The notes beneath the pieces are model-generated. The model saw only the letters and a program-made list of their open reading frames with translations, searched no databases and was not told the origin of the DNA. Shown in pieces: positions 614-18,861 of a DNA stretch of 64,000 bases. The position numbers and the translations under genes were made by a program. How positions within the stretch are numbered: the first letter of the stretch is position 1; each line of letters begins with the position of its first letter. The stretch is from Agreia sp. VKM Ac-1783 (GTDB lineage Bacteria; Actinomycetota; Actinomycetes; Actinomycetales; Microbacteriaceae): assembly GCF_900177765.1 (NCBI RefSeq), contig NZ_FXWI01000001.1:1-64000 (forward strand), in the 5' to 3' direction.

Positions 614-2209
614 TCATTCGCGTTTGGAAGAGTGCTGGAAGGTGCGCAACTGGAGCATGAGGGAGAATCTGGACTCGCTGTTGCCCAGATCGATCCCGCC
701 GATCTCAGCGACTCGGCGCAGACGGTACCGGAAGGTATTGGCATGGACGTGTAGCGACACCGAGGCCGCTGACACATCGCCGAACGCGTCGAGCCACGCC
801 CTGAGCGTGTCGACCAGGTCGGTGTCGTGACGAGCGTCGTATGTGATCAGGCGATCCAAAGGGCCGGTCGGCTGCACATGCTCGGCCGCCATGATGTCGG
901 TGAGGCGCTGCAGAAGCACCGCGTCTTGAAGCTCGGTTGCGTGCACGAGCAGCGGTACGGTTGGCTGTGGTCGGGCCGACTGCAGGAGGAACGCTCTCAG
1001 CGCCTGGTCGGCCGACCTCCGGCTGTCTGGGGTGTCGGCGGCGTCTGCCACGGTATCGCCGATGACAGCCAGAAGCGCCTGAGCGCTCCACTTCTGTACG
1101 AACATCTGCACGGTCGATGTAACGGTGATGTCGCCGTTCTTGCCGAGCGGTACCACAGCGTAGACGTGACCGTCGACGAGCGCACTGCGCGCCTTGGGGA
1201 AGGTGGCCTGCATGTGCGAGCCGAAGACGAGGGCCGCCTCGCGCATGGCGGTGTCCATGGCGCCCGGCTCCTGCGAGGCGATGACCACGACTACCCACCG
1301 GGACCGGGTGATCCCGAGTTTGAATGCTTCCTCGCGCGCGGCCGGCCCGCCCCGCATGAGGCTGAGTACCTGGGCCGTTGCACCACCCTGGGCTGCGCGT
1401 TCCACCGCAGCAAGCTCGGCGACGTTGGGAGCGATCATCGCGGCACCCCTCAGCAGGGCCTCGTGCAATTCTGCGCTCGGCCCAGCCGCAGTGGCTGCCC
1501 AGATCGACCCCAGGGTGTGGCCCTTGTGATGAAGGCGCACGACCGCGCGGGGGATTGTGCCACCGACGCCCTCGGTCGGAACGTGCACCACCTCGTCACG
1601 CCCGTAGATGCGTTTGAAGTACCCTTCGGAACGGAGGAAGTCGGTGTTGTGCTGTGACACCTGGCGAGCGAGCACGGTGGCCTTGCGGGCTTCGTCCGCC
1701 CGGTTCTGGTCATCCGAGAAGGCCAGGATCTTCGATCCCAGATCCTCGATCGTGACGGGTGCGTCGACCATCTGGGAGACGGCGTTGGCGAGCGCGAAGA
1801 GGTCCACTCCACCCTGTCGGCCCGTGGTCTGCCCCGGCGACAGCGCGTCACCGAGGATCTGGTGCACGGAGACGATGAGTTGCCGCCAGGTGTACCCCTC
1901 GGCGAGCTCGAACACGGCGATGCCGCCCTCGACGGCCTCACGCACAGCCTCGCGGGGTGCTGCGGCCGCGCTGCGCACGATCACCGCGATGACCCCGCGG
2001 AGGCTCGCCTCTGCGAGCAGTTCGGCGAGGGCCGTCGCACCGCCCACACCCGGGCAGAGGAGGACGGTGCCCTCAGCCGCTTCGATGGATTCCACGGGGT
2101 CGTAGTAGTGGATGTCCGCGACGGGCGCGGAAGCGGCGATCCTGCCGGCGACGAGTTCGAGGACCGACGGTCCGAGCTCGCCGAGCATCTCTCCCAGGAC
2201 AACTGCCAC
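614..2209 (-). CDS. PucR-family transcriptional regulator
   Basis: A protein of about 530 residues ending in the PucR C-terminal helix-turn-helix (LHVHANTFRYRLRRVAEIGGIDL), the part that binds DNA in this family. The N-terminal half (IHYYDP, GTVLLCPGV) looks like the sensory PucR domain. PucR proteins usually activate neighbouring catabolic genes in response to a small ligand. The gene is divergent from a peptide-type ABC importer and is the best candidate regulator of it. The open frame extends to 2434, but that extension is basic and unlike coding sequence. GTG at 2209 has GGAGAG 11 bases upstream; ATG at 2188 is the alternative, with GGGAG only 2 bases away. Confidence 0.85.
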   Translation of the reverse strand: MAVVLGEMLGELGPSVLELVAGRIAASAPVADIHYYDPVESIEAAEGTVLLCPGVGGATALAELLAEASLRGVIAVIVRSAAAAPREAVREAVEGGIAVFELAEGYTWRQLIVSVHQILGDALSPGQTTGRQGGVDLFALANAVSQMVDAPVTIEDLGSKILAFSDDQNRADEARKATVLARQVSQHNTDFLRSEGYFKRIYGRDEVVHVPTEGVGGTIPRAVVRLHHKGHTLGSIWAATAAGPSAELHEALLRGAAMIAPNVAELAAVERAAQGGATAQVLSLMRGGPAAREEAFKLGITRSRWVVVVIASQEPGAMDTAMREAALVFGSHMQATFPKARSALVDGHVYAVVPLGKNGDITVTSTVQMFVQKWSAQALLAVIGDTVADAADTPDSRRSADQALRAFLLQSARPQPTVPLLVHATELQDAVLLQRLTDIMAAEHVQPTGPLDRLITYDARHDTDLVDTLRAWLDAFGDVSAASVSLHVHANTFRYRLRRVAEIGGIDLGNSESRFSLMLQLRTFQHSSKRE

Positions 2210-2298
2210 GAAACACCACGCTCTCCGACGCCGTGAATGACTCCCGGCTTCGTGCTCGAGTGTACAAGCGGACGATCCGATCGACGGGTGAGGAGGCT

Positions 2299-2347
2299 TG
2301 GTGAACCGGACATAGCCGGGCCGTACTTTCTGGTGAACGCAACATAG
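2299..2347. promoter_or_regulatory. Two direct repeats in the pucR-like/ABC divergent promoter region
   Basis: TGGTGAACCGGACATAG (2299-2315) and TGGTGAACGCAACATAG (2331-2347) match at 15 of 17 positions and start 32 bp apart, about three helical turns. They lie in the intergenic region between the PucR-type regulator and the importer operon, which fits a tandem binding site for that regulator. Their function is inferred from position and repetition only. Confidence 0.55.
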
Positions 2348-2458
2348 TGACGGTGTTTCGCGCCGGATACCTTCTACTCCAAGGGTTCGCCGGATCCCAC
2401 GGGCGTCTCCAGCAGATGTATCACGGACGCTCACCCTTCACCTACGAAAGCTGAAATC

Positions 2459-4015
2459 ATGACAGCCATGTTCTCGTCACATGCTCGTCGAGCGCTGGCC
2501 CTTGGGGTCTCACTCGCTGTAGCAGCACTCACCCTCGCAGGTTGTAGCGGGGCACCCTCGACCTCCAGTTCCAAGGAACTCACAATCGGCATGCAGACGA
2601 GCCCCGCCTCGCTCGACCCTGCACTGCTCGACCCCGGCCTCACCTACTTCGCCGACCTGGCGTACACGCCCCTCATCATCCGCGGTTCCGACGGAACGCT
2701 GCGACCGGGTCTGGCCACGGAGTGGGGATACATCGGTGACGGCAACACCACCTTCCAGCTCAAGCTGCGCGATGGCGTCGAGTTCTCGGATGGCGGCAAG
2801 CTGACCGCTCAAGGCGTCGTCGATCACCTGAACTATGTGCAGTCCGCGGGCGCCACTCCCTCCACCTGGCTCAGCGGCGCGACCTTCACTGCCGTCGACG
2901 ACATGACCGTCCAGGTCTCCTTGGCCAGCCCGGTGCCCAACGTCGAGTTCTTCTTCAGCCAGTTCGGTACAGGCCTCGCTGATGTGATCAGCCCCGACGG
3001 CCTCGCCGATCCCGCGTCGCTCGGCACGACTACTCACGGAGCCGGCCCCTATGTTCTCGACAAGGCTGCGACTGTCACGGGTGACCACTACGTGTACACC
3101 GCGAACCCCACTTACTGGGATGCCGAGAACGTGCACTGGGACAAAGTCACGATCAAGGTCATCGCGAACCAGAGTTCGATCCTGAACTCGATGAAGTCGG
3201 GACAGATCGATATCGCTCCGTTCGACTACACCACCGCAGCGGACGCCGAGGCCGCAGGCATGAACGTGCATTCCGTGCCGAACGTGTTCACAGGCCTCAA
3301 CCTGCTCGACCGAGCCGGCACCCTGGTGCCCGCCCTCGGTGACGTTCGCGTTCGACAGGCGATCAACTTCGCGATCGACCGCGATGCCGTAGGAAAAGCG
3401 CTCTACGGCGACTTCGCCGACCCCACTACGCAGACCACTCAGGATACGGGCTTCCAGGAGGATCTCGACGACTACTACGCCTACGACCCAGACAAAGCGC
3501 GCAAACTGCTCGCCGAGGCCGGCTACCCCGACGGATTCGAGTTCACTGTCGCCTCCACACCGTTCTTCAACGGCGACACAATGGTGCAGGCGATCGCCGG
3601 CCAGTTGGCAGAGGTGGGCATCACGCTGAAGATGGAGAGCATCGCAGACACCAGTGAGTGGGCGACGCGTATGTCGTCCGGCGAGTTCCCGGCAGCCTCG
3701 ATCGGGTACGGCAGCCTTCCGCTCTCGGTCGAAGGTCCTGGACTGTTCCTGCCGACCGCCTTCTTCAACGCCTTCCACAGTGAGGACGCGCAGCTCACCG
3801 ATCTCTACGGACAGCTGCTTGTCGCCGCACCGGACGACGTGCAGAGCGTAAGCGAGAAGCTTCAGAAGCGCGTCGTCGAACTCGCATGGTTTGCTCCGGT
3901 CGGCTGGGCCCCGCTCGGCTACTACTGGTCGGACAAGGTCGACTCGACCGAGCTCAACGCAACGACGGGTCTCTCGCCCAGCGCCGCGATCATCGACGTC
4001 AAGCCCGCTGACTGA
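2459..4015 (+). CDS. ABC transporter substrate-binding lipoprotein, family 5 (peptide/opine/nickel type)
   Basis: 518 residues, the usual length for SBP_bac_5 proteins such as DppA/OppA. The N-terminus has a positive region, a hydrophobic stretch and a lipobox ending LTLAGC with the lipidated Cys at residue 29. The mature part begins ELTIGMQTSPASLDPALLD and contains VRQAINFAIDRDAVGKALYG and DKARKLLAEAGYP, both family hallmarks. It should sit on the outer face of the membrane and deliver a peptide-like solute to the permeases encoded next. A second in-frame ATG lies three codons in. First gene of an operon running to about 8641. Ligand unknown; the neighbouring amidases and D-amino-acid enzymes suggest an amino-acid conjugate. 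Confidence 0.92.
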   Translation: MTAMFSSHARRALALGVSLAVAALTLAGCSGAPSTSSSKELTIGMQTSPASLDPALLDPGLTYFADLAYTPLIIRGSDGTLRPGLATEWGYIGDGNTTFQLKLRDGVEFSDGGKLTAQGVVDHLNYVQSAGATPSTWLSGATFTAVDDMTVQVSLASPVPNVEFFFSQFGTGLADVISPDGLADPASLGTTTHGAGPYVLDKAATVTGDHYVYTANPTYWDAENVHWDKVTIKVIANQSSILNSMKSGQIDIAPFDYTTAADAEAAGMNVHSVPNVFTGLNLLDRAGTLVPALGDVRVRQAINFAIDRDAVGKALYGDFADPTTQTTQDTGFQEDLDDYYAYDPDKARKLLAEAGYPDGFEFTVASTPFFNGDTMVQAIAGQLAEVGITLKMESIADTSEWATRMSSGEFPAASIGYGSLPLSVEGPGLFLPTAFFNAFHSEDAQLTDLYGQLLVAAPDDVQSVSEKLQKRVVELAWFAPVGWAPLGYYWSDKVDSTELNATTGLSPSAAIIDVKPAD

Positions 4016-4069: not shown

Positions 4070-5011
4070 GTGATTCGCCTCCTGGCGAGGTGGCTGGGTA
4101 CCTCAGCGTTACTCCTCTTCGTTGTATCTGCCCTCACCTTCGTGCTCACCGCGCTCGCGCCCGGAGATGCGGCCCGGGTCATCCTGGGCAAGAACGGAAC
4201 AGAAGAGCAGTATCAGGCCCTTCGGCTACAGCTCGGCCTCGACGAGCCCCTGCCGGTTCGGTATTGGAACTGGCTGAGTGGTGCCCTTCACGGAGATCTG
4301 GGCGTGTCCATCTACAGTCAGCAGAGCGTGACCGACATCATCGGTGGACGCCTGGCTCCCACGCTCGCCCTGGTGGTCGGGGGCCTGATCTTCTCGGCGG
4401 TCTTGGGCATAGCGCTGGGCATCGCGAGTGCCCGCGGTCGTGGTCGCTTGTCGAAAGTGACAGACGTGATCTCGCTCCTCGGGGTATCGATTCCGCCTTT
4501 CTGGCTGGGCTTCATCCTCGTGACCGCCTTCGCGGTCGCCCTCCCCTTATTCCCCGCAACGGGCTACGTCGACTTCGCCAGCTCGCCCTCTGAATGGGCG
4601 CGCAGTCTGGTACTTCCCGTCATCACGCTCGGCGTGGGGGGCGTCGCCCTCATTGCGAAGCAGACACGCGACGCGATGAGCAAGCAGCTGAGTCTCGATT
4701 ACGTCGACGCCATGCGGGCGCAGGGACTGTCCGAGCGCTCGATCGTCTTCAGGCACGTGCTCAAGAATGCGGCCATTCCGATCACGACGGTCCTCGGAAT
4801 CCTGTTCACGGGCCTCTTCAGTGGAACCGTGCTTGTCGAGAACGTCTTCGCGCTTCCGGGACTCGGCGGTCTCATCGTGCAGGCGACGGCTTCGCATGAC
4901 ATCCCCATCGTGGAGGGGGTGGCACTGGTGTTCGCACTCGTCGTGGTGCTCACGAACCTCGTCGTCGACATCATCAACGGCCTGCTCAATCCGAAGGCGA
5001 GACTCGCATGA
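4070..5011 (+). CDS. ABC transporter permease, DppB type
   Basis: 313 residues with six predicted membrane helices. An N-terminal helix is followed by the conserved stretch ILGKNGTEEQYQALRLQLGLDEPLP seen in DppB/OppB/NikB proteins, and near the C-terminus there is a cytoplasmic EAA loop (DYVDAMRAQGLSERSIVFRH) that contacts the ATPase. GTG start at 4070 with GAGGG about 9 bases upstream. The last codons overlap the ATG of the next gene (ATGA at 5008-5011), so the two are translationally coupled. With the following fused permease-ATPase it forms the membrane channel of the importer. Confidence 0.92.
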   Translation: MIRLLARWLGTSALLLFVVSALTFVLTALAPGDAARVILGKNGTEEQYQALRLQLGLDEPLPVRYWNWLSGALHGDLGVSIYSQQSVTDIIGGRLAPTLALVVGGLIFSAVLGIALGIASARGRGRLSKVTDVISLLGVSIPPFWLGFILVTAFAVALPLFPATGYVDFASSPSEWARSLVLPVITLGVGGVALIAKQTRDAMSKQLSLDYVDAMRAQGLSERSIVFRHVLKNAAIPITTVLGILFTGLFSGTVLVENVFALPGLGGLIVQATASHDIPIVEGVALVFALVVVLTNLVVDIINGLLNPKARLA

Positions 5012-6873
5012 ATTCCGTACGCGCTTTTCTGCGCAAACCGCTGGCGGTCGCCGCTCTTGTCTTCCTTGTGGTCGTGGTGCTCGCGTGTCTGTTCGCCGAC
5101 GTACTGGCGCCCTACGATCCCATCGCTCAGGACCTTGCGGCGGCGAACTCCCTGCCCACCCCTGCTCACCTCCTCGGTGCGGACACCCTGGGTCGTGACA
5201 TCTTGAGTCGACTGCTGTTCGGTGGGCAGGTGACGCTCTCTGGCTCGCTCGTCGCGGTGTTGGTGTTCTTGGTCTTCGGCCTCACCCTCGGAATGCTCGC
5301 GGGCTACGTTCGCGGTGTGCTCGACGTGGTTCTGACAAAGATCGTCGAAGTACTGTACGCGGTGCCGGTGATCATCATCCTTCTCGTCGTGCTGTCGGTG
5401 TTCAGCCAGAACCTCGTGGTGGCCATGGTGACCCTGGGCGTTCTCGGCTTCGGCGGGCTCTTCCGGGTCGTGCGCGCCACCACGCTCGCCGCCAGCGGCG
5501 AACTGTACGTCAAGGCAGCGCGCGCTTCCGGATTGAGCCATGGCAAGGTGCTGTGGCGACACATACTCCCGAACGTCTGGGGGCCGGTGATCGTGCAGGT
5601 TTCGCTGTTCGCGGCCTCTGCTGTACTCGTCGAGAGCGGACTGGCGTTCCTCGGGTTCTCGGTGAAGGCCCCCGACCCGAGTTGGGGCTCGATGATCAGT
5701 GATGCCTCGCAGGCCCTGACCCGTTACCCGTGGTTGCTGGTGCCGCCGGGGGCTACCATCGCTCTCGTCGTGTTGTGCCTCGGACTCGTCGGCGACGGTG
5801 TGCGCGACTCGATGTCACGCGATGGCAGGGCACCGGCGCGCAACACCGGAGCCCGCGCAGCACTCCCAGACAGGGATGTGCCCGAGACAAACGACTCCGC
5901 ACTTCTCAGCGTGCGCGACCTCTCGGTCGGTTTCGGTCGCGGCTCCGACACGACCATTGTCGTGCGTAACGTGAACTTCGACGTCATGCGCGGCGAGGCG
6001 CTCGGCATCGTGGGCGAATCCGGCAGCGGCAAGACCGTCACGGCGAGAGCGCTGATCGGACTGCTGGGTTCCGGCGGCCGTGTTCTCGGAGGCTCGATCA
6101 CTTTCGACGGTGTCAGTCTCGGCACGCTCGGACGCTCCGCTTTGGCGCGCTTACGAGGATCGGGCATCGGGCTCATTCCGCAGGAGCCGATGAACACTCT
6201 CGATCCTGTCTTCACCATCGGCTCCCAACTCCGGGAGGTGATTCGCCGTCACGACAGATCCTCGCGGCGGGCGAGCGAAGAGCGCGCTGTCGAGCTGCTG
6301 GAACTTGTCGGCATCCACGACCCGGCGGCGGTGCTGCGGAAGTATCCCCACGAGCTCTCCGGCGGAATGGCGCAACGCATCGGCATCGCTCTGGCGCTGG
6401 CCGGACGGCCGAAGCTTCTGATCGCCGATGAGCCGACAACTGCCCTCGACGTGACTGTGCAGCAGCAGATTCTCGATCTGCTCGTCGAACTCCGCCATCG
6501 ATTCGGAATGGCTCTCGTGCTCGTCACGCACGACTGGGGCGTGCTCGCGGACGTCTGCGATCGCGCGGCCGTGATGTACGCGGGGGAAGTCGTGGAAGAG
6601 GCCGCGGTGGTCGAGCTGTACGAGCGGCCCCTGCACCCCTATACCCGTGCGCTGATCGCGGCAAATCCGCATGGCGCGGTGCCAGGGGAACCGCTGCCGA
6701 GCATCCCGGGTCAGGTTCCGCCGCCGACGGCGTGGCCGAAGGGCTGTCACTTCGCGAGCAGGTGCGCGTTGGCGACGGACGCCTGCCGCGAGGCCCCCAT
6801 ACCGTTCGTGCTTCCCGAGCCCGACCGCGGCAGCCGATGTATCCGTATTGACGCACTGGTAGGTGAGGCATGA
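5008..6873 (+). CDS. Fused ABC permease and ATPase (DppC-DppD in one chain)
   Basis: A 621-residue protein joining two subunits that are separate in most Dpp/Opp systems. Residues 1 to about 275 are a DppC-type permease with LLGADTLGRDILSRLLFG and the EAA loop ELYVKAARASGLSHGKV. A hydrophilic linker of about 20 residues follows. The rest is an OppD/DppD-type ATPase with Walker A GESGSGKT (about residue 336), signature LSGGMAQR, Walker B LLIADEP and a C-terminal oligopeptide-transporter extension with a Cys pair (CHFASRC). No stop or frameshift occurs between the parts. Such fusions are known in actinobacterial peptide/nickel transporters. Overlaps both neighbours by 4 bases. Confidence 0.92.
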   Translation: MNSVRAFLRKPLAVAALVFLVVVVLACLFADVLAPYDPIAQDLAAANSLPTPAHLLGADTLGRDILSRLLFGGQVTLSGSLVAVLVFLVFGLTLGMLAGYVRGVLDVVLTKIVEVLYAVPVIIILLVVLSVFSQNLVVAMVTLGVLGFGGLFRVVRATTLAASGELYVKAARASGLSHGKVLWRHILPNVWGPVIVQVSLFAASAVLVESGLAFLGFSVKAPDPSWGSMISDASQALTRYPWLLVPPGATIALVVLCLGLVGDGVRDSMSRDGRAPARNTGARAALPDRDVPETNDSALLSVRDLSVGFGRGSDTTIVVRNVNFDVMRGEALGIVGESGSGKTVTARALIGLLGSGGRVLGGSITFDGVSLGTLGRSALARLRGSGIGLIPQEPMNTLDPVFTIGSQLREVIRRHDRSSRRASEERAVELLELVGIHDPAAVLRKYPHELSGGMAQRIGIALALAGRPKLLIADEPTTALDVTVQQQILDLLVELRHRFGMALVLVTHDWGVLADVCDRAAVMYAGEVVEEAAVVELYERPLHPYTRALIAANPHGAVPGEPLPSIPGQVPPPTAWPKGCHFASRCALATDACREAPIPFVLPEPDRGSRCIRIDALVGEA

Positions 6874-7685
6874 GCAAATTACTCGAGGTGACTGACCTGA
6901 CGGTGTCCTACCGACGGGGTTTCCGTCATCCCCCGCTGCTGGCCAATGACGGGGTATCGATCTCCATTTCCCGAGGCAAGACTCTCGGCATCGTGGGGGA
7001 GAGCGGCTCGGGCAAATCGACGCTGGGGGATGCCATCCTGGGGTTCGCGCCCGTCTCGAGCGGCAGCATCCGTTTCGATGGCGAGGAGCTGGTCGGTGCC
7101 TCGGCGGCCCGTCGTCGCGAACTGACCAAGAACATCCAGGTCATTTTCCAGAACCCCTACGGCTCACTGAACCCCGCCAAGCCCGTCGGCGCGACTCTTC
7201 TCGAGCCGCTCGTCGCCCATCGGATCGCGAGCGGCGCCGCGGCAACAGCACGCGTGGAAGAGTGGCTCGAAGTCGTTGGACTGCCAGCCGATGCGGCGAA
7301 GCGCTATCCTCGCGACTTCTCGGGCGGGCAGCGTCAGCGCATCGCCATCGCCCGAGCGTTGCTCGTCGAGCCCGAACTTGTCGTATGCGACGAGGCTGTC
7401 AGCGCGCTGGATCTCTCCATTCAAGCTCAGATTCTAAATCTGCTGCTCGACCTCCAGCATCGTCTCGGCGTGAGCTATCTCTTCATCACTCACGACATGG
7501 CTGTCGTGGAGCACATGGCAGATCGCGTCGCAGTGATGCACAGGGGAGTGGTCGTCGAGGAGGGATCTGCCCGCGATGTCGTGCATGCTCCAACCGCTGA
7601 GTACACCCAGGCGCTCCTCGCTGCTGCCCCCTCGCCTGATCCCCGTATCCAGCAAGCGCGTCGACGAGAGCGGACTGCGCCATGA
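6870..7685 (+). CDS. ABC transporter ATP-binding protein, DppF/OppF type
   Basis: 271 residues with Walker A GESGSGKST, the Q-loop region VIFQNPYGSLNPAK, signature FSGGQRQR, Walker B LVVCDEAVSALD and the switch His in FITHDM. It should pair with the ATPase half of the preceding fused protein to power import. Note DEAVSALD rather than the commoner DEPTSALD, a variant frequent in OppF proteins. ATG overlaps the previous stop (ATGA) and the last codons overlap the following hydrolase gene, so it is inside one operon. Confidence 0.93.
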   Translation: MSKLLEVTDLTVSYRRGFRHPPLLANDGVSISISRGKTLGIVGESGSGKSTLGDAILGFAPVSSGSIRFDGEELVGASAARRRELTKNIQVIFQNPYGSLNPAKPVGATLLEPLVAHRIASGAAATARVEEWLEVVGLPADAAKRYPRDFSGGQRQRIAIARALLVEPELVVCDEAVSALDLSIQAQILNLLLDLQHRLGVSYLFITHDMAVVEHMADRVAVMHRGVVVEEGSARDVVHAPTAEYTQALLAAAPSPDPRIQQARRRERTAP

Positions 7686-8641
7686 GCCGCGTCGTGCTGG
7701 AGGAAGCGATTCGTGAGTGGCTCTCACGGAACGAGGAACTCTCGTCGGCCCTCGGTCTCGACGACGATGCACCGAGCGAAGCAGGGCGTGCGTCGAATAG
7801 AGATCTGAGCGACCAGCTGTTTGCAGAATTCGGCCTCCACGCTGACTGGGATGTGTCCGTCGAGGATCATCTGGTCTCGGTGCACGGAGGTGAGATCCGG
7901 GTGCGGCAGTACCGGCCGAACCGTGTGAGGGGTGTTCTGCCGGGATACCTGCTTCTTCATGGCGGAGCCTTCTGGCTCGGGAGCATCGACGAATCGATCA
8001 ATCGAGCATTGGCTTCTCAGCGTGCGGCGGAAGCGGGAGTGTCTCTCTTCGACGTGGACTACCGGCTGGCGCCCGAGCATCCCTTCCCCGCCGGTCTTGA
8101 AGACGCATTCACGGCGCTGACGTGGGTGCACGAGAACCACGACAGTCTCGGGGTCGATCCCGATCGCCTGGTCATCGGAGGAGTCTCCGCGGGCGGCAAT
8201 CTCGCGGCCGCACTCAGTCAGCTCACTCGAGACAGAGGAGGGCCACGGCTCGCAGGTCAGATCCTCGAAGTGCCGTTGGTCGATTTTCGGGGCGCTCTCG
8301 AGTGGTCGGGGGAAGGCGCTGACATCGTCGGAAGCTTGGATCTGGCCGGCGTGGCGGCGTTCTATGCGCCGGGTCAGTCCTTGGACAGCCCGTACCTGTC
8401 GCCGATCGCAGGATCGTTCGAGGGTCTGCCCCCGACGCACGTGATGACTGCGGAGTACGACCTCATCGCTGCTGGCGCAGAGAAGTACGTCGTCGCCTTG
8501 CGCGAGGCCGGCGTCGATGTCTCCTCGACGCGGCACTCGGGGATGCTGCACGGCACACCGGGAATCACCGGGCGAGTGCGGCAGGCCCGGCTGTGGCACG
8601 AGGAGGTATCGGCAGTGCTGCGCGACATGGTCGGACGCTGA
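7682..8641 (+). CDS. Alpha/beta hydrolase, hormone-sensitive-lipase family
   Basis: 319 residues. The HSL (family IV) oxyanion motif is LLLHGGAFWLGS, the nucleophile elbow is GGVSAGGNLAAAL, the acid residue is probably in MTAEYDLIAAGAEKY and the His in HSGMLHG near the C-terminus. These enzymes hydrolyse short acyl esters or amides in the cytoplasm. ATG at 7682 overlaps the stop of the ATPase gene (ATGA), which ties the enzyme to the importer and suggests it acts on the imported compound. Substrate unknown. Related to the next gene, with the same layout (LAPEHPFPAGLEDA against LAPEYPYPVALNEG). Confidence 0.9.
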   Translation: MSRVVLEEAIREWLSRNEELSSALGLDDDAPSEAGRASNRDLSDQLFAEFGLHADWDVSVEDHLVSVHGGEIRVRQYRPNRVRGVLPGYLLLHGGAFWLGSIDESINRALASQRAAEAGVSLFDVDYRLAPEHPFPAGLEDAFTALTWVHENHDSLGVDPDRLVIGGVSAGGNLAAALSQLTRDRGGPRLAGQILEVPLVDFRGALEWSGEGADIVGSLDLAGVAAFYAPGQSLDSPYLSPIAGSFEGLPPTHVMTAEYDLIAAGAEKYVVALREAGVDVSSTRHSGMLHGTPGITGRVRQARLWHEEVSAVLRDMVGR

Positions 8642-11491: not shown

Positions 11492-12100
11492 TCAGAACGA
11501 TGGCGGGGTCATGGCGCCGATCAGGACGGCCGCCGCGGTGGTGGCGTTCGCGTACCAGTGCGGTATCGACGCGTCGTAGGTGATCGTGTCACCCGCGGCG
11601 AGTTCGTGCCTCTCGTCTCCCACTACGACGATCAATTCACCCTCGACGATGATCACGCACTCCTCGCCGTCGTGGCGGAACGGCGCCGATTCGTTGCTCC
11701 AGCCCGCGCCGATTTCGGCGCGGATCATTCCGAGCTGGCCGTTCAGACTCGGCGTGAGGAGTTCGTAGACCAGATCGCGCTCAGACAACAGGAGTCGACG
11801 GTGGGATCCCGCACGAACCAGTTCGACATGCTGGGGCTGGGGGTCTGGGCCACCGAAGAATTCGCCGACGCCTACCCCCAGGGCCTGGGCGAGTTTGATC
11901 AGGGTGCTGTAGGAGGGATTGCCGTTGCCGCGCTCGATCTGGCTGAGGATCCCGGAGCTTACGCCGGCAGCGCCGGCAAGGGCGTTGAGGCTCATGCCGG
12001 AGGCCGACCGCAGCGACCGCACGATGTCTCCGAGCTCCTGAGGGGCTTCTGTAGGGTCCTGCGTCGCGGATAGCTCTGGCTCGTCGCTCATCTCGCTCAT
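11492..12100 (-). CDS. XRE-cupin transcriptional regulator
   Basis: 202 residues. An N-terminal Cro/C1-type helix-turn-helix (IVRSLRSASGMSLNALAGAAGVSSGILSQIERG) is followed by a cupin barrel (RHDGEECVIIVEGELIVVVGDERHELAAGDTITYDASIPH). Such regulators bind DNA through the HTH and a small ligand through the cupin, often controlling amino-acid or amine catabolism. It ends 3 bases from the convergent decarboxylase stop. ATG at 12100 is used; a second in-frame ATG lies three codons later. It follows the amidohydrolase by 13 bases, so the two are probably cotranscribed. Confidence 0.9.
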   Translation of the reverse strand: MSEMSDEPELSATQDPTEAPQELGDIVRSLRSASGMSLNALAGAAGVSSGILSQIERGNGNPSYSTLIKLAQALGVGVGEFFGGPDPQPQHVELVRAGSHRRLLLSERDLVYELLTPSLNGQLGMIRAEIGAGWSNESAPFRHDGEECVIIVEGELIVVVGDERHELAAGDTITYDASIPHWYANATTAAAVLIGAMTPPSF

Positions 12101-12113
12101 CTCGTCCTCACGC

Positions 12114-13349
12114 TCACGCTTGCAGGGCTAGATCGTTGCGGTAGACCGTGCCTGCCTTAGCCACGAAACGAATCGCGCGAAGCGCGGTGATGTCCTCGAG
12201 AGGATCCCCGTCAACGATGATGAGGTCGGCGGCCTTACCGACCTCGAGCGTTCCGGTTGTTGCGTGCAGGCCCGCGTTCACGGCACCGTCGCGCGTAGCG
12301 GAGAGAAGCGCTCGCGCCGGGGTGAGCCCGATCCTCACCATGGCGATAATCTCGTCGACGAGCCCATCGTGCGGGTTGAATGGTGTGCCCGCATCCGTGC
12401 CCGCCGCGATGTTCACTCCCGCTTCGACCGCGGCTCGGAACATCGAGATGCTGCGGTCCTCCTCCGCTCTGGCCTTGTCGACGATCCACGACGGGATCGT
12501 GCCGTTCGCGCCCTCGGCGACAATATTGCCGATCGCCGCGAGGGTGGGGACGAGGTAGGTGCCTCGATCGAGCGCGAGGTCGAAAAGGGCCGCGTCCAGG
12601 TGGAATCCGTGTTCGATCGTGTCTACGCCTGCAAGAATTGCGTTCTCGATGCCCTCTCGGCCGATCGCGTGAGTCGATACTCGACGGCCCGCATTGTGCG
12701 CCTCCTGCACGATCACCGCGAGCTCCTCTCGCAGCAGCGCCGTCTGCGTGGGCTTGACCTCCGATGTGAGCACTCCGCCGGTCGCCATGGCTTTGATGAA
12801 GCTCGCTCCCTCCTTGAGCTGCCCGCGGACAGCCGTCCGCACGGCGTCGACTCCATCCGCCTCGACGCCCATGAAGTAGCAATGTCCGCCGGTCATGGTG
12901 ATGACGCGGCCGGCAGCGACGACGCGGGGACCGGGGACGATGCCCGTGTCGATCGCGCGGCCGAGATCGATCACCACGTTGTCGGCGGCCCCGCAGTCCT
13001 TCACCGTCGTGATTCCTGCGTTCAGCGTGATGAGCGCGTTCGCGGCCGCACGGTATGCCGCCGTCGCCGTCGAGTCGCTGCGCACCTGGGCGCCGAGGTC
13101 GGCTGCTCCATCGTTGGCGAGGTGCACGTGCGAGTTGATCAGGCCGGGCATAATCGTTCCGGCTGCAGCATCGATCACGATGTCGACGGGAGGAGCCTCA
13201 GCATCGGGGCCGATCCATCCGATCACTCCATGATCGACGAGGATCGATCGACCAGCGTCAGTTGTGCGCCCATCGTTACCGTCGAAGATTCGACCATTCC
13301 GCACGAGCCAGCGTGCTGAGGGTTGTCGTTGGAGCTGGTGAGTGATCAT
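12114..13349 (-). CDS. Amidohydrolase-superfamily metal-dependent peptidase/amidase
   Basis: 411 residues. Amidohydrolase metal ligands are visible: GLINSHVHLAND near residue 75, a Lys candidate in FIKAMATGGVLT, His residues in STHAIGREG and DTIEHGFHLD, and the Asp in AAGTDAGTPFNPH. The pattern resembles imidazolonepropionase-like and Xaa-Pro/Lys-Arg carboxypeptidase members that remove a C-terminal amino acid from an N-acylated substrate. Cytoplasmic, with no signal peptide. ATG at 13349 is preferred over GTG 13370. Neither has a ribosome binding site, which suggests a leaderless or nearly leaderless mRNA. Its context fits release of an amino acid from an imported conjugate. Confidence 0.85.
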   Translation of the reverse strand: MITHQLQRQPSARWLVRNGRIFDGNDGRTTDAGRSILVDHGVIGWIGPDAEAPPVDIVIDAAAGTIMPGLINSHVHLANDGAADLGAQVRSDSTATAAYRAAANALITLNAGITTVKDCGAADNVVIDLGRAIDTGIVPGPRVVAAGRVITMTGGHCYFMGVEADGVDAVRTAVRGQLKEGASFIKAMATGGVLTSEVKPTQTALLREELAVIVQEAHNAGRRVSTHAIGREGIENAILAGVDTIEHGFHLDAALFDLALDRGTYLVPTLAAIGNIVAEGANGTIPSWIVDKARAEEDRSISMFRAAVEAGVNIAAGTDAGTPFNPHDGLVDEIIAMVRIGLTPARALLSATRDGAVNAGLHATTGTLEVGKAADLIIVDGDPLEDITALRAIRFVAKAGTVYRNDLALQA

Positions 13350-13358
13350 AAAATATTC

Positions 13359-13368
13359 ACTATAGTGC
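13359..13368. promoter_or_regulatory. 10-bp palindrome in front of the amidohydrolase gene
   Basis: CACTATAGTG is a perfect dyad 9 bases upstream of the amidohydrolase ATG. On the minus strand it contains TATAGT, which could be a -10 element, and TATAAT occurs about 20 bases further upstream, at the end of the Lrp-type gene. An operator overlapping a promoter is possible. Candidate binders are the adjacent XRE-cupin or Lrp proteins; which one is not shown. Confidence 0.3.
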
Positions 13369-13384
13369 ACGGTTATCTACTGAA

Positions 13385-13909
13385 TTATACGGAAGTCTTG
13401 CTTCGCAGGAGTTGGGCGGTTCGATAGGGGATCAACTCCTTGAGGATGATCGACGTCGAGGTCCGTCGGATGCCCGTGCAGCCGAGAATTCGCTGGCCCA
13501 CCCGGTAGAGGTCATCCGCGTCGATCGCCACGACGTGGCAGATGAGGTCTGTCTCCCCGGACACCGCGTTACATTCAAGAACTTCAGGAATGGTCAACAG
13601 TTCTTTCATGGCTTTCTCGAATTCACTCTGGCCCACCTCTGCGGTGACGAAGGCTCGCGTGCCATACCCGAGCGACTCTGGTCGCACGAGCGTGCTGGTC
13701 AGGCGAAGAACTCCCTCGCCGAATAGAAGTGAGATCCGTGCCTGCACTGTGCCACGGGCAAGGCGTAGGCGCTCGGACAGCCACCCGACCGTCGCCCGGG
13801 GTTCCACGTCGAGAGCGAGTATGACTCTCTGGCTCGCTTCATCGATCCTTTTGGCCATATTCGCCACGGCATGTCCCAACGTCTGCAGATCATCGATCAA
13901 ATCGATCAT
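13385..13909 (-). CDS. Lrp/AsnC-family transcriptional regulator
   Basis: 174 residues. The N-terminal winged helix (ATVGWLSERLRLARGTVQARISLL) is followed by a RAM-type sensing domain (RAFVTAEVGQSEFEKAM... VSGETDLICHVVAIDADDLYRV). Lrp/AsnC proteins bind an amino acid in the RAM domain and control amino-acid metabolism. It is divergent from the ACT-domain and Leu/Val-type dehydrogenase genes and upstream of the amidohydrolase on its own strand, so it could regulate both. An alternative start at 13855 (MAKRIDEASQ) gives 156 residues, closer to the family norm; neither start has a clear ribosome binding site. Confidence 0.85.
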   Translation of the reverse strand: MIDLIDDLQTLGHAVANMAKRIDEASQRVILALDVEPRATVGWLSERLRLARGTVQARISLLFGEGVLRLTSTLVRPESLGYGTRAFVTAEVGQSEFEKAMKELLTIPEVLECNAVSGETDLICHVVAIDADDLYRVGQRILGCTGIRRTSTSIILKELIPYRTAQLLRSKTSV

Positions 13910-13960
13910 TATGTCGAACGACTATTCCATATCTTGAACGGTCACAACGACAATTTATGC

Positions 13961-14257
13961 ATGAACGCCGCGGATGTGACAACCGTTGAGATCATCGTCA
14001 GCGACGATTCGACGGCCCTCGGCCTCATCGTGCGCGTGGTCTCAACACCTCCCTTCTCGCTGGAGAGGCTGCGCTTCTCGAAAGTCACCGCCACGAAGAG
14101 CCGTCAGGTCCTGATGGACGTCGTTGCGAACGGTCGCTGCGATCTGCTCAGTAAGAGGTTGAACCGCATTGTGCCGGTGCTGCGTGTGCGTCTACTCGAT
14201 CCGCTAGAACTCTCCCCACGACGAAAGAACAGAAATGACATACCCAGGACTGCCTGA
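13961..14257 (+). CDS. Small ACT-domain protein resembling the acetohydroxyacid synthase regulatory subunit
   Basis: 98 residues. The segment TTVEIIVSDDSTALGLIVRV, a middle strand around LERLRF, then DLLSKRLNRIVPVLRVRLLDP follow the beta-alpha-beta-beta-alpha-beta pattern of the ACT domain in IlvN/IlvH, including the 'L.K.L.R.V.VL...L.DP' end. ACT domains bind amino acids as allosteric ligands. Codon use is clearly coding (G/C third positions). The 3' end overlaps the following dehydrogenase gene by 23 bases, so the two are coupled. No catalytic synthase subunit is nearby, so it may tune the dehydrogenase or act alone. ATG 13961 has no good ribosome binding site; the frame is open upstream. 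Confidence 0.6.
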   Translation: MNAADVTTVEIIVSDDSTALGLIVRVVSTPPFSLERLRFSKVTATKSRQVLMDVVANGRCDLLSKRLNRIVPVLRVRLLDPLELSPRRKNRNDIPRTA

Positions 14258-15296
14258 TTTCGACCATGAACGTGTGACAACCGTGGTGGGAGAGCGCTCG
14301 GGCGCGACGATAACCGTTGCCTTGCATTCGAGCCGGCTCGGCCCCGCGCTCGGCGGCTGCCGTTTGTGGAACTACGACAGCTGGCTCGACGGAGTCGTAG
14401 ACGCTTTGCGTCTGTCGTCGGCTATGACCCTCAAGAACGCTGCGGCGGGCCTCAACGCTGGCGGAGGAAAATCTGTGATCGCGCTCCGACGGGGCGAGGT
14501 CCTCGATCCGCAGCGACGACGGAATGCCCTGCTCGACCTGGGTGACCTCGTCGAAACGTTCGACGGTCGATACCGCACGGCCGAAGATGTCGGAACCAAC
14601 GAGGCGGATATGGGTGTCGTGGCCGAGCGCACCCCGCATGTGGTGGGCTTGCCGGCACAGGGCGGTGGCACCGGAAACCCGGCCCACGACACCGCCCTCG
14701 GCGTCTACGCGAGCATCGGCGCCACGCTCGAGGCGATGGGAGCCCCCGGCATTGTAGGCAAGACGATAACGATCTCCGGCCTCGGTCAAGTGGGTGGTCG
14801 CCTTGCCAAGCTGCTCGCCGCCGATGGTGCGCAGCTGATTGTGGCCGATGTGAATCCCGCGTGCCGAGCTCTGGCAGACGAACTCGGCGCACAATGGGTC
14901 TCCATCGAGGAGGTGCTGGTGACCCGGGCGCACGTGTTCGTTCCTGCCGCCTTGGGAGGAGTCCTCACCGATGATGTGATCGATGCGCTACCCGTTCGCG
15001 CCGTCGTCGGCCCGGCCAACAACCCGCTTGCCCACAGGGAGGGCGCTGATCGTCTGGCCGAGCGGGGGATTCTCTACGCGCCCGACTTCGTCGTCAATGC
15101 GGGGGGAGTCATCTACCTGACTATGGCGGCGGAAGGCGCTGACCGGTCGATCATCGACGATCGTGTGCGAGGCATCGGTGACACGCTCCGAGCGGCGTTC
15201 CGAGATGCCGACGAGAAGGGCATCACGCCCCTCGCCGCGGCCGAGGGGATCGCTGCTGCGCGGTTGGCCGATGCGATTGGCCGTTCGCACAGCTAA
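14235..15296 (+). CDS. Leucine/valine/phenylalanine-type NAD-dependent amino acid dehydrogenase
   Basis: 353 residues. The catalytic region has LGPALGGCRLW, the first Lys in MTLKNAAAGLNAGGGK and the second in GGGKSVIAL (about residue 79), as in Leu/Phe/Val dehydrogenases. A nucleotide-binding Rossmann fold follows, ITISGLGQVGGRLAKLLAADGAQLIVAD, where the final Asp favours NAD. The C-terminus has ARAVVGPANNPL-like text and APDFVVNAGGV. The enzyme interconverts an L-amino acid and its 2-keto acid. Beside a keto acid decarboxylase and a D-amino-acid dehydrogenase it could either deaminate the L form or reaminate keto acid. Which side chain is accepted cannot be read from sequence. Confidence 0.9.
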   Translation: MTYPGLPDFDHERVTTVVGERSGATITVALHSSRLGPALGGCRLWNYDSWLDGVVDALRLSSAMTLKNAAAGLNAGGGKSVIALRRGEVLDPQRRRNALLDLGDLVETFDGRYRTAEDVGTNEADMGVVAERTPHVVGLPAQGGGTGNPAHDTALGVYASIGATLEAMGAPGIVGKTITISGLGQVGGRLAKLLAADGAQLIVADVNPACRALADELGAQWVSIEEVLVTRAHVFVPAALGGVLTDDVIDALPVRAVVGPANNPLAHREGADRLAERGILYAPDFVVNAGGVIYLTMAAEGADRSIIDDRVRGIGDTLRAAFRDADEKGITPLAAAEGIAAARLADAIGRSHS

Positions 15297-15308
15297 CGTG
15301 TAGCAATT

Positions 15309-16886
15309 GTGGATTCCCGAACAAGATTGCGTCCGTCCTCGAAAGGTAACTTGATAGCCGTGCTGACACCTGATGGCGATTTCCCGGAGCGTCCGTGCCA
15401 GACGCTCTTCGTCGGAGGAAGGGTCATCGATCCTGAGACCGGCCTCGACGCCGTGCGCAACGTCGGTCTTTGCGATGGCTCGATCAGTTACATCGGTTCG
15501 GGGCGCCCGCCGTCGGAGTTGATCGTCGACGTCGCTGGCTTGGTAGTAGCGCCCGGGTTCATTGACATGCACAGCCACGCGCAGTCCCCTACGGGCCTCT
15601 TGTTGCAAGCTCTCGACGGCGTCACGACAGCGCTCGACCTCGAGGCCGGCGCTCTGCCCGTGTCGGTGGTGTACGAGCGGGCCGAAGCCGAGGGGCGACC
15701 CATCAACTTCGGCTTCTCGTCATCCTGGGCGCTGGCCCGGATGCAGGTTCTCGACGATGTGAAGCTGCCTGATGAGAACACCGCAGACCCTCTGCCGGAG
15801 CCGATTCACGTGTTCGAGGAGAACCAGACGCGAGCGAGGTGGAACACCCCCGCAAGCGATCGGGAGGTCGACGCGATCTTGGATCGTGTCGAGCAGGGGG
15901 TTCATGAGGGCGGCATCGGTATCGGTGTGCTCCTCGGCTATTCCCCTCTGTCGGGTCGCGAGGAGTTCTACCGCACCGCTCAACTGGCGGAGCGGTTGAG
16001 CGTACCCGCATTCACCCACTCCCGACAGATGTCCAACATCGAACCGGGCTCGTCGCTGGACGGAGCTCTCGAAATCATCGGTGCGGCGGCGGGAACGGGC
16101 GCAGCGCTGCACATCTGCCACATCAACAGCACCTCCCTGCAACGCATCGACGACGTCGGGCTGGCGGTGGAGATCGCTCAAGCGCGCGGCACCCGTGTCA
16201 CCACGGAGGCCTACCCCTACGCGGCCGGTTCGACGGGAGTCGGGGCCGCGTTCTTCGAACCCGACAAACTCGACAGGTTGGGGATCACGACGCGCTCGAT
16301 CAAGTACCTTCCCACGGGCGAGCGCATCGCCTCCCTGGATCGGCTGGTCGAGTTGCGGCAGATGGATCCAGGCGGCATGTGCATCATAGATTTCCTGGAC
16401 ACCGATGATCCAACGCAGCTGGCGATGCTCATCCGCGGGCTCACCATGCCCGGCGGGGTCATCGCCTCCGACTCGATGCCGCTCACACACGGACCTCACC
16501 GGGTGTACAACGAGTGGCCGCCCCCGGAAGGTGCCCTCACGCATCCTCGCAGCGCCGGATGCTTTGCGCGCACCTTCGGGTGGCTCGTTCGGGAGCTCGG
16601 CGTGCTCACCCTCGAGGATGCGCTCAGGAGGGTCACGTACGCCCCTGCATCCATCCTCGAAGACTCGGTTCCCGCAATGAAGAAGAAGGGTCGCGTGCAA
16701 GTGGGCGCCGACGCCGATCTCGCGATCTTCGATCCCCAGACCATCTCTGATCGCTCCACCTTCGAGACCACGAGACCGTCGACCGGATTCAGGCACGTGC
16801 TCGTGGCGGGCACCTTCGTCGTCCGCGATGGCATCGCCATTGCCGCGAGCCGTGCAGGTCGCGCGATTCGTAGCGTCGTGCGCTAG
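15309..16886 (+). CDS. N-acyl-D-amino-acid deacylase-like amidohydrolase
   Basis: Up to 525 residues. The first metal-binding motif is FIDMHSHAQSP; later come FTHSRQMSN, LHICHINSTS and, near the end, SDSMPLTHGPHRVY and an amidohydrolase C-terminal barrel (KGRVQVGADADLAIFDPQTI). This set matches D-aminoacylase/dihydroorotase-like enzymes that remove an acyl group from N-acyl-D-amino acids or N-acyl-D-glutamate. No signal peptide, so cytoplasmic. The start is uncertain: GTG 15309 lacks a ribosome binding site, whereas TTG 15351 and GTG 15360 follow GAAAGG at 15341. Thirteen bases after the dehydrogenase, likely the same transcript. Context supports D-amino-acid release. Confidence 0.85.
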   Translation: MDSRTRLRPSSKGNLIAVLTPDGDFPERPCQTLFVGGRVIDPETGLDAVRNVGLCDGSISYIGSGRPPSELIVDVAGLVVAPGFIDMHSHAQSPTGLLLQALDGVTTALDLEAGALPVSVVYERAEAEGRPINFGFSSSWALARMQVLDDVKLPDENTADPLPEPIHVFEENQTRARWNTPASDREVDAILDRVEQGVHEGGIGIGVLLGYSPLSGREEFYRTAQLAERLSVPAFTHSRQMSNIEPGSSLDGALEIIGAAAGTGAALHICHINSTSLQRIDDVGLAVEIAQARGTRVTTEAYPYAAGSTGVGAAFFEPDKLDRLGITTRSIKYLPTGERIASLDRLVELRQMDPGGMCIIDFLDTDDPTQLAMLIRGLTMPGGVIASDSMPLTHGPHRVYNEWPPPEGALTHPRSAGCFARTFGWLVRELGVLTLEDALRRVTYAPASILEDSVPAMKKKGRVQVGADADLAIFDPQTISDRSTFETTRPSTGFRHVLVAGTFVVRDGIAIAASRAGRAIRSVVR

Positions 16887-16945
16887 TGCAACGGCACCCC
16901 CACCAGTACTTGTTCCCCACCCAGTACCCACCCAGGAGGCAATTC

Positions 16946-17644
16946 ATGTCCACGCCGCTCACTATCGGTCTTCTCGTATTCCCGGACGTCACGCAGCTCG
17001 ATCTCACCGGACCGCTGCAGGTGTTCACGTCGGTACCGGGCGTGACAGTCCATCTGGTGTGGAAGGATCTCGAGCCGGTGCAGTCCGACGCCGTGATGAA
17101 GATCCTGCCCACCACCACCTTTGCCGAGTGTCCTCAGCTCGACGTGATCTGTGTCCCGGGTGGGTATGGCGCGGACGAGATGCTCAACGATGTTGAGGTT
17201 CTCGACTTCCTCCGCGCCCAGGCCGAGGGCGCCCGCTACATCACCTCCGTATGTACGGGTGCGCTGATCCTCGGAGCCGCCGGACTTCTCTCGGGATACC
17301 GGGCGACGACCCACTGGACGGCGATCGACAGCTTGGAACCGTTCGGAGCGATCCCGGTCAAGACCCGTGTGTGTGTCGACCGCAACCGTGTGACGGGAGG
17401 CGGCGTGACCGCGGGCATCGACTTCGCATTGACTCTGGTCGCGGAGATCTTCGATCGTCCGACTGCTGAGGCTGTTCAGCTCAGGCTCGAGTACAACCCG
17501 GCCCCGCCGTTCACTTCAGGATCGCCCGACACGGCGCCGAAGGAGGTTCTCGAGCCTTACCTTGAGCGCATCGCGCCCATGCGGGCGTATCGTGCGGGTG
17601 CCGTGGCACGCGCAGTAGCAAACGTGAACGGCACGGACAACTGA
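16946..17644 (+). CDS. DJ-1/PfpI-family protein, isonitrile hydratase-like
   Basis: 232 residues from ATG 16946 with AGGAGG 7 bases upstream. The N-terminal FPDVTQLDLTGPLQVF carries the Asp conserved in isonitrile hydratases, and the nucleophile elbow is SVCTGALILGAAGLLSGYRATTHW with Cys about residue 103. These are the two residues implicated in InhA-type isonitrile hydratases, which convert isocyanides to N-formamides. A formamide is itself an N-acyl amine, so the assignment fits an amidase-rich pathway, although many relatives are uncharacterised. No AraC-type DNA-binding domain is fused to it. Confidence 0.8.
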   Translation: MSTPLTIGLLVFPDVTQLDLTGPLQVFTSVPGVTVHLVWKDLEPVQSDAVMKILPTTTFAECPQLDVICVPGGYGADEMLNDVEVLDFLRAQAEGARYITSVCTGALILGAAGLLSGYRATTHWTAIDSLEPFGAIPVKTRVCVDRNRVTGGGVTAGIDFALTLVAEIFDRPTAEAVQLRLEYNPAPPFTSGSPDTAPKEVLEPYLERIAPMRAYRAGAVARAVANVNGTDN

Positions 17645-17715
17645 ACCAATCGAAGTGAACATCGTTGTCCAATCCGACGATGTTTAGAGGCTCAGCCCTT
17701 GGTGCAATAGCTGCC

Positions 17716-18861
17716 ATGTACACCGATATGGCCAGCCCCGCCACCTCGTCAGAAGTCCCCCCGACCGCCGATGTCGTCATCGTGGGAGGTGGAATCGCGG
17801 GAGTCTCCCTGGCCGCCGAGATCGGCGATCGAGCTCGAGTAGTCCTGCTCGAAGCAGACGACGCGCTGTTCCGGCACACGAGCAGTCGCTCTGCGCAGCA
17901 GGTGCAGCCCAGCTACGGCCCGCCCGCGGTCCGGCAGCTGACGAGCACCACTCTGAGTATCCTCCGTCGGCTCGACGAGAACGCTCCCGCTCCCGTCCTC
18001 TCGTCTCGAATTCTGTACGTCATCGGGTTGGATGACTCGTCCAAAGTCTCGCAAATGGCGAGCGAGGGCACGGGGTTGCGCCTGACGAGCCACTCCGAGG
18101 TCGAGGATGCCGTACCGGGACTCCTTCCTGGACTCGTTCGCGAGGTCGCGGCAGACGATGACGCAAGCGAGGTGAAGGTCAAGCTCCTTCTCACGAGATA
18201 TGCGAAACGCGCGCAGGCGCACGGGGTCGAGTTCGTGTCCCGGGCGAAACTGACCGCGGTGGCCAGGGTCGGCTCCAGCTATCGGCTCACAACGACGGCC
18301 GGAACTGTCACCGCTCCGATCATCGTCAATGCTGCCGGGGCGTGGGCGGATGATGTCGCCGCTCTGGCCGGGTCGCGGCCTCTGGGCCTCGCCCCCCTGC
18401 GCCGCACGGTGATCCTTACAGCGCCCACCGGCACTCCGGTCGGGCCGATGTGGCCGATGATCTACGACGCAGCCGGGTCGCTCTATTTCAGGCCGCACGG
18501 GCGTCAGGTTCTTGCCTCACCACTCGAGGACGAGGCGAGCCTCGCAGAGGACGCACGCCCAAGAGAGGACGTCATCGAGCGAACCCTCGCGAGGCTCAAC
18601 GCGCTGACCTCGTTTGAGGTAGCGGGAGCCAGCGAAGCCTGGACAGGACTTCGAACCGTCACGCGTGATGATGTGCCTGCGGTGGGTTTCGATCACGACT
18701 CCGACGGGTTCTTCTGGCTTGCCGGACAGGGCGGATACGGTATCCAGACCTCTGCGGCGATCTCGATTCTGGCTGCCGCGGCCATCCTTCGCGAGGCGAG
18801 CCCGCTGACCGGAGACGACCAGCAGGCGTTCGAGAGCATGACTCCGAACCGCTTCGCCTGA
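17716..18861 (+). CDS. FAD-dependent D-amino acid dehydrogenase, DauA (D-arginine dehydrogenase)-like
   Basis: About 381 residues. The N-terminal dinucleotide fold is VVIVGGGIAGVSLAAE with the acidic strand end VVLLEAD. The stretch HTSSRSAQQVQPSYGPPAVRQLT and the C-terminal GFFWLAGQGGYGIQTSAAI closely follow the pattern recalled for Pseudomonas DauA, which oxidises D-arginine and other D-amino acids to the keto acid. NAAGAWADDVAALAG is a further DAO-family mark. The enzyme would feed electrons to a quinone or other acceptor. Start uncertain: TTG 17665, ATG 17716 and ATG 17728 are all in frame and none has a strong ribosome binding site. Confidence 0.85.
   Translation: MYTDMASPATSSEVPPTADVVIVGGGIAGVSLAAEIGDRARVVLLEADDALFRHTSSRSAQQVQPSYGPPAVRQLTSTTLSILRRLDENAPAPVLSSRILYVIGLDDSSKVSQMASEGTGLRLTSHSEVEDAVPGLLPGLVREVAADDDASEVKVKLLLTRYAKRAQAHGVEFVSRAKLTAVARVGSSYRLTTTAGTVTAPIIVNAAGAWADDVAALAGSRPLGLAPLRRTVILTAPTGTPVGPMWPMIYDAAGSLYFRPHGRQVLASPLEDEASLAEDARPREDVIERTLARLNALTSFEVAGASEAWTGLRTVTRDDVPAVGFDHDSDGFFWLAGQGGYGIQTSAAISILAAAAILREASPLTGDDQQAFESMTPNRFA

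Follow-up and report, generated by a model that had tools for sequence, protein, structure and literature searches.

Analysis of a 64,000-nucleotide stretch of Agreia sp. VKM Ac-1783 (contig NZ_FXWI01000001.1, positions 1 to 64,000; hereafter, the window) revealed a block of genes, running from a PucR-type regulator to a DauA-like flavin adenine dinucleotide (FAD) enzyme that ends at position 18,861, which we tentatively read, at a little short of an even chance, as a catabolic island of mosaic make-up for amino acids, including D-forms, that are peptide-bound or N-acylated. The reading draws on the gene content, on two sub-modules that recur in relatives, on the neighbourhood statistics of an N-acyl-D-amino-acid deacylase-like amidohydrolase (hereafter, the deacylase), and on active-site residues. 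Each gene of the block has a clear family match (hmmscan against Pfam and NCBIfam, and sequence search of the PDB; Table 1), which bears out the gene content named in an earlier sequence-only reading; the interval drawn there, 2189–18,861, holds the genes apart from that of PucR, which lies outside, 2189 being about its start. Taken singly, the genes are ordinary, but such a combination is unusual and resembles smaller conserved modules patched together. Because the block is a mosaic of this kind, a single linear pathway is not demonstrated.

The deacylase and its actinobacterial neighbourhood

The deacylase scores above the curated cut-off of NCBIfam NF006560 (PRK09061 amidohydrolase subfamily), and the nine best PDB structure matches of its predicted model (mean predicted local distance difference test score, pLDDT, 90.4) are D-aminoacylase-type enzymes, with template-modelling (TM) scores of 0.76–0.81 by target. 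In an alignment of the window sequence with 31 relatives, H88 and H90 (HxH), His237, His271, D388, H412 and R414 are kept in all 32 sequences, and P413 is invariant. The protein shares with D-aminoacylase and N-acyl-D-glutamate deacylase (1m7j, 3gip) and with OngB (9kb1) the fold (TM ~0.8 by target) and a set of residues, namely HxH, two more His, the catalytic Asp and the HPR motif, which in D-aminoacylases holds the substrate carboxylate; it is ~20% identical to these enzymes. Judged by its sequence, it is predicted to act on N-acyl-D-amino acids.

For comparison of gene neighbourhoods, 92 deacylase loci (numbered with the prefix L) were collected: 80 from a genome contig search (the best 80 of at least 476 relatives), five from plasmids and seven from genomes of the same order. 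Record titles and order membership served to pick out the 31 actinobacterial ones by hand. Controls numbered 61, made up of 49 loci fetched around other genes of the window and 12 segments of its genome, with each gene's own anchor loci left out of its controls. The bit-score thresholds for the counts were chosen by us. Related loci enter the Fisher tests as if they were independent (near relatives are L007/L013, L009/L010 and L011/L012), which weighs against the reading. PucR relatives were found in 10 of the 31 actinobacterial deacylase loci and in none of the controls (p = 6 × 10−6), and Opp permease-ATPase relatives in 9/31 against 2/61 (p = 7 × 10−4); the 61 other deacylase loci held none and two, respectively. 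Queries for five further families were taken from L085, which was left out of their counts (30 loci). A racemase-type enolase, of the N-succinyl/N-acylamino-acid racemase (NSAR) type, was present in 11 of these loci, an S12 hydrolase in 10, a second beta-lactamase-fold protein in 9 and an M20 hydrolase in 7, all absent from the 61 controls. The M55 D-aminopeptidase occurred in 2/30 (plus L085) against 0/61, which is not significant (p = 0.11). The L085 enolase passes the cut-off of TIGR01928, a model named for o-succinylbenzoate synthase, a family that we take to include N-acylamino-acid racemases.

The neighbourhood of the actinobacterial relatives supports use of N-acyl- and D-amino acids, as the sequence-only reading had proposed. 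The enrichment of PucR, Opp, racemase-type enolase, M20 and S12 beside these deacylases and the FAD active site, which fits neutral D-amino acids, sustain that part of the proposal; a single pathway for the whole block, which is not conserved as a unit, is not upheld. If true, this brings to light a recurring actinobacterial neighbourhood for N-acyl- and D-amino-acid use, composed of PucR, Opp, S12, NSAR-type enolase, M20 and deacylase. In the tree, the window deacylase lies inside an actinobacterial clade (30 rows, support 99) holding all 12 enolase-linked members, and stands beside that of L006 (support 94), which is not enolase-linked.

A full island is seen in L085 (Leucobacter komagatae), which harbors a dehydrogenase, beta-lactamase-fold hydrolases, an M55 D-aminopeptidase, Opp, a binding protein, the deacylase, M20, NSAR-type enolase and PucR. 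Locus L167, from the same family as the window, carries Opp, enolase, M20, S12 and a PucR relative, but the 20 kb retrieved contain no deacylase. A CobW-type GTPase-like gene, as in L005, lies within 5 kb of a deacylase relative in 12 loci, seven of them from Bradyrhizobium (L005, L028, L030, L034–L036, L038, L041, L042, L051, L052 and L058; only the L005 copy was typed), and such a GTPase may load the amidohydrolase metal.

The FAD enzyme and the Lrp-linked genes

Residue numbers of DauA, taken from PMC11193025, were set onto the alignment by counting, and the chain letters match at all seven positions. The window enzyme keeps the catalytic residues Y53, R222, Y249 and R305 of DauA and carries the changes H48Q, E87L and E246G. 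According to an excerpt of PMC11193025, E87 and E246 bind the guanidinium of D-arginine; both acids are gone here, which makes a neutral D-amino acid the likelier substrate, a tendency and not a proof, since DauA of P. aeruginosa is itself broad. An island of amidohydrolase, aminotransferase and DauA, hinted at by Pfam matches, was ruled out, as NCBIfam types the neighbours in L094 as glycine C-acetyltransferase, threonine dehydrogenase and imidazolonepropionase.

The second recurring sub-module joins the Lrp regulator, the amino-acid dehydrogenase and the 2-keto-acid decarboxylase. Eight other decarboxylase loci, from 120 genomes of the family, and ten dehydrogenase loci, being ten of the eleven best among 48 other genomes with a match, were inspected. 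An Lrp relative stands beside the decarboxylase in four of the former (L113, L116, L117 and L118), in two of which (L116 and L118) the dehydrogenase also adjoins it; among the latter, Lrp is divergent to the dehydrogenase in two (L133 and L135). The window shows the same divergent arrangement as these relatives, with the decarboxylase 2.7 kb off, behind minus-strand genes. This looks like an Lrp-linked unit that, going by its protein families, would convert an amino acid to a keto acid and an aldehyde, and Lrp presumably regulates the dehydrogenase/decarboxylase module. The decarboxylase matches indolepyruvate and branched-chain keto-acid decarboxylases in the PDB, and the dehydrogenase matches Leu, Phe and Trp dehydrogenases there, with scores that do not single out one substrate.

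The proposed route and its competitors

In the proposed route, the Opp importer would take up a peptide-like or N-acyl compound, from which the amidohydrolases, perhaps together with the esterases, would free an amino acid: the deacylase from N-acyl-D-amino acids, and the Xaa-Pro-type enzyme, which is probably a dipeptidase specific for L-forms or an N-acyl amidase, from dipeptides or N-acyl-L-amino acids. Oxidation of the freed neutral D-amino acid by the DauA-like enzyme would give a 2-keto acid, which the Leu/Val-type nicotinamide adenine dinucleotide (NAD) dehydrogenase would interconvert with the L-amino acid and the decarboxylase would turn into an aldehyde. We infer the stereochemistry, the substrates, the order of the steps and their co-regulation. 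What would be new in comparison with the related islands is the oxidative pair of DauA-like enzyme and amino-acid dehydrogenase, which would replace the racemase route (acyltransferase, N-acylamino-acid racemase and M20 enzyme) whose genes accompany related deacylases in other Actinobacteria; if true, the block offers an oxidative alternative where those islands use acylation and racemisation.

Parts of this scheme resemble known systems. The dauBAR genes of P. aeruginosa convert D- to L-arginine by coupling a D-amino-acid dehydrogenase to an L-amino-acid dehydrogenase. The window also pairs a DauA-type FAD enzyme with an L-amino-acid dehydrogenase and a regulator, but its L-enzyme is of the Glu/Leu/Phe/Val (ELFV) family, the guanidinium-binding acids are lost, and an importer, a deacylase and a decarboxylase are added. 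The NSAR route for D-amino acids relies on an acyltransferase, NSAR and an M20 enzyme. NSAR-type genes accompany actinobacterial relatives of the window deacylase as well as relatives of its PucR and Opp genes, whereas the window carries the oxidative pair: no match to racemase-type enolase, M20 or S12 was found in the 64 kb, the rest of the genome not having been searched for them. In the dpp operon of B. subtilis, an M55 D-aminopeptidase accompanies a dipeptide importer; the window has an Opp/Dpp-type importer and its relative L085 the M55 enzyme, to which no match was found in the window itself. No description of the gene set was found among the matches listed in the open-licence literature on these enzymes and combinations, judged by titles and abstract openings.

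Several results weigh against the proposed route. Subtype V amidohydrolases bind zinc through a strand-2 Cys plus two His. His237 and His271 are kept in the deacylase, whereas the Cys of D-aminoacylases aligns to Ala113, adjoining the invariant Glu112, and no Cys is found among the invariant columns of the 32 sequences. The loci of the nearest relatives of the deacylase, L006 (57% identity) and L007 and L013 (50%), gave no match to PucR, Opp or enolase; in L007 and L013, a sodium-solute symporter is present instead. The window is not itself an NSAR/M20/S12 island, because it contains no NSAR, M20 or S12 match. None of the 92 deacylase loci contains a relative of DauA, of the decarboxylase or of Lrp; relatives of the dehydrogenase were found twice (L004 and L085), of the Xaa-Pro-type enzyme twice, of the two esterases once and twice, and of the binding protein twice; the binding protein, both esterases and the Xaa-Pro-type enzyme show no significant association with the deacylase. 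In 18 loci of the order with DauA relatives, genes of the Kbl, threonine dehydrogenase and HutI types (typed in L094) are near in 8–10 and a deacylase in none. The whole gene set was found in no fetched relative, and the co-conservation by which the sequence-only reading was to stand or fall did not materialise, the deacylase being rare and most partner genes occurring in 0–3 of its 92 loci. A common operator was sought between three promoter regions and none was found (5, 9 and 0 shared 12-mers against shuffled means of 2.6, 6.5 and 2.6), the 12-mer counts themselves being uninformative.

The strongest competitor is a chance neighbourhood without a common pathway, made up of a PucR-Opp-esterase unit acting on esters or peptides, an Lrp-controlled unit turning L-amino acids into aldehydes, and a deacylase-InhA-DauA unit, InhA being the isocyanide-hydratase-like protein of the block. 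We regard this as a real possibility, though doubtful. Besides the missing common operator, it is favored by the uneven distribution of the parts, given here as genomes with a match, own genome included, at E-value limits that differ between genes. In the family, the dehydrogenase was found in 49/150 (10−40), the decarboxylase in 9/120 (10−60), the Xaa-Pro-type enzyme in 4/120 (10−60), the binding protein in 24/90 (10−60), PucR in 2/90 (10−50) and the deacylase in 1/150 (10−40; 8/396 in the order). The InhA-like gene was found in 13/150 family genomes (10−30), and the DauA-like gene in 19/297 order genomes (10−30), none of the other matches being flagged as from the family. At these limits, two congeneric genomes in the sample gave no match to the deacylase, InhA or the dehydrogenase. 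On the other hand, PucR, Opp and the deacylase co-locate in relatives, and a gap of 12 bases separates the end of the dehydrogenase from the deacylase frame, which links both recurring modules in one apparent operon. Moreover, L085 combines Opp, PucR and the deacylase with a dehydrogenase at its edge, and L118 combines Lrp, the decarboxylase, the dehydrogenase and an Xaa-Pro-like enzyme.

A different substrate is suggested by the InhA-like protein, which aligns with isocyanide hydratase (3non) over 221 residues and keeps Asp17 and Cys101; unlike 3non, its gene sits in a deacylase/dehydrogenase operon, and its hydratase activity is a prediction. An excerpt of PMC10971408 describes Cys101 as the nucleophile and Asp17 as the acid/base. 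The block might then assimilate isocyano or N-formyl amino acids, with InhA converting the isonitrile to an N-formyl amino acid, an amidohydrolase removing formate and the dehydrogenases oxidising the amine, which we consider unlikely. Other enzymes are known to form a route in which isonitrile hydratase is followed by formamide deformylase. The deformylase NfdA is named in an excerpt of PMC13081902. In L002 (with an FAD oxidoreductase) and in L004, the deacylase has an InhA relative as its same-strand neighbour; in L075, an InhA relative lies 1.1 kb downstream of the deacylase, and a further copy stands beside an ELFV dehydrogenase in L165. However, these three of the 92 deacylase loci against 0/51 controls do not reach significance (1/31 among actinobacterial loci, p = 0.38), the L075 genome has seven InhA-like matches, and close InhA relatives in ten Bradyrhizobium loci adjoin a weaker DJ-1-like gene, without a deacylase match nearby. 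That the operon at 14,235–18,861 is a natural route for such compounds, with isonitrile hydratase, deformylase and D-/L-amino-acid dehydrogenases in sequence, fed by the peptide importer, is quite improbable. If true, isocyanide hydratase would gain a role in physiology, and the operon would offer a genetic setting for asking about the natural role of these enzymes.

It is least probable, and indeed very unlikely, that the deacylase acts on another N-acyl compound, with DauA and InhA as bystanders: OngB, which acts on an N-acetylated sugar acid and has Cys97 as its zinc-binding Cys (excerpt of PMC12017989), shows that D-aminoacylase relatives can shift substrate, and the zinc-binding Cys is absent from the window enzyme, but the genes around the actinobacterial relatives suggest amino-acid chemistry, and no sugar enzyme is found among the family matches of the block.

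The window InhA is closer to the Bradyrhizobium copies (L155–L164; 64–72% identity) than to matches in the sample of its own family (best 54%). The genes adjoining those copies are divergent and resemble DJ-1/PfpI more weakly; by analogy with L004, they are GlxA-like. The L165 copy (L165:5300–7000), from Xanthobacter tagetidis, whose genome has seven InhA-like matches, adjoins a dehydrogenase of the Leu/Val type. A Pantoea plasmid locus with an InhA relative has no deacylase among its listed genes.

Gene layout, composition and flanking genes

Table 1. Features of the block, with positions in the window and supporting matches.
Feature	Position	Strand	Evidence
PucR-type regulator, AdeR-like C-terminal helix-turn-helix	614–2188	-	Pfam HTH_30 71 bits, GGDEF_2, weak PucR; family search match at 617–2188
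Direct repeat, 17 nt, two copies 32 bases apart	2299–2347	.	Copies 82% alike; between PucR and importer
Peptide-type ABC substrate-binding protein	2459–4015	+	SBP_bac_5 227 bits
Opp/Dpp permease B	4070–5011	+	Pfam
Opp/Dpp permease C fused to first ATPase	5008–6873	+	BPD_transp_1 + ABC_tran + oligo_HPY in a single 621-aa frame
Second Opp/Dpp ATPase	6870–7685	+	Pfam
Alpha/beta hydrolase 1, HSL/LipP1-like	7682–8641	+	Abhydrolase_3 183 bits; LipP1 202 bits, below cut-off 350
Alpha/beta hydrolase 2, HSL-type	8727–9692	+	Abhydrolase_3 179 bits; reading frame opens at 8517
2-Keto-acid decarboxylase, indolepyruvate/branched-chain type	9810–11,489	+	TIGR03393 507 bits, below cut-off 946; PDB 413–389 bits
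XRE-cupin regulator, PuuR-like	11,492–12,100	-	HTH_31, Cupin_2
Amidohydrolase, Xaa-Pro dipeptidase/Arg carboxypeptidase type	12,114–13,370	-	NF051886 296 bits, below cut-off 500; PDB 3mtw 206 bits
Lrp/AsnC regulator	13,385–13,909	-	AsnC_trans_reg
Leu/Val/Phe-type amino-acid dehydrogenase	14,235–15,296	+	PDB Leu 241, Phe 228 and Trp dehydrogenase 177 bits
N-acyl-D-amino-acid deacylase-like amidohydrolase	15,309–16,886	+	NF006560 598.6 bits, cut-off 340; fold; tree
Isocyanide (isonitrile) hydratase-like DJ-1/PfpI protein (InhA-like)	16,946–17,644	+	PDB isocyanide hydratase 267 bits; reading frame opens at 16,886
DauA-like FAD D-amino-acid dehydrogenase	17,665–18,861	+	Best PDB match P. aeruginosa DauA, 162 bits

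Gene spacing suggests four transcripts: PucR (minus); the binding protein to the second hydrolase, perhaps to the decarboxylase (plus); Lrp, the Xaa-Pro-type enzyme and XRE-cupin (minus); and dehydrogenase, deacylase, InhA and DauA (plus). The open frames of the last four are consecutive with gaps of at most 20 bases, one gap becoming 59 bases with the later InhA start, which was chosen by eye. For the second hydrolase, the start at 8727 is, by eye, more likely than the opening of its frame. The permease-ATPase fusion has a counterpart in a 623-aa frame at the corresponding place in L085. The direct repeat is a candidate operator only, as short two-copy repeats can arise by chance. An open frame of 128 aa at 13,871–14,257 resembles an ACT domain (NF008362 19 bits, cut-off 68) and has no clear relative in the fetched loci; it is probably not a gene. 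Lists of neighbouring genes are approximate, the caller of reading frames being crude.

A promoter and terminator scan of the window gave results at chance level, of no use as evidence, and neither Rfam matches at the gathering threshold nor tRNA genes were found in it. The G–C content of the block is 0.642, marginally under the range of 12 other segments from its genome (0.643–0.673). Measured against 189 background genes, the codon scores of 14 block genes (the PucR value was not used) run from the 10th to the 56th percentile, with 13 under the median. This hints at most weakly at foreign origin. The window lies on a contig of 1.05 Mb; the genome, 3.76 Mb in all, is in seven contigs. Downstream, a BlaI-type repressor and an M48/BlaR1-like protease (18,861–20,155) start at the end of the DauA gene with a one-base overlap, and are followed at 20,156–24,504 by convergent copper-type P-ATPase and CtaG genes. 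This stretch is likely a metal-handling unit, and the DauA transcript may be common to it.

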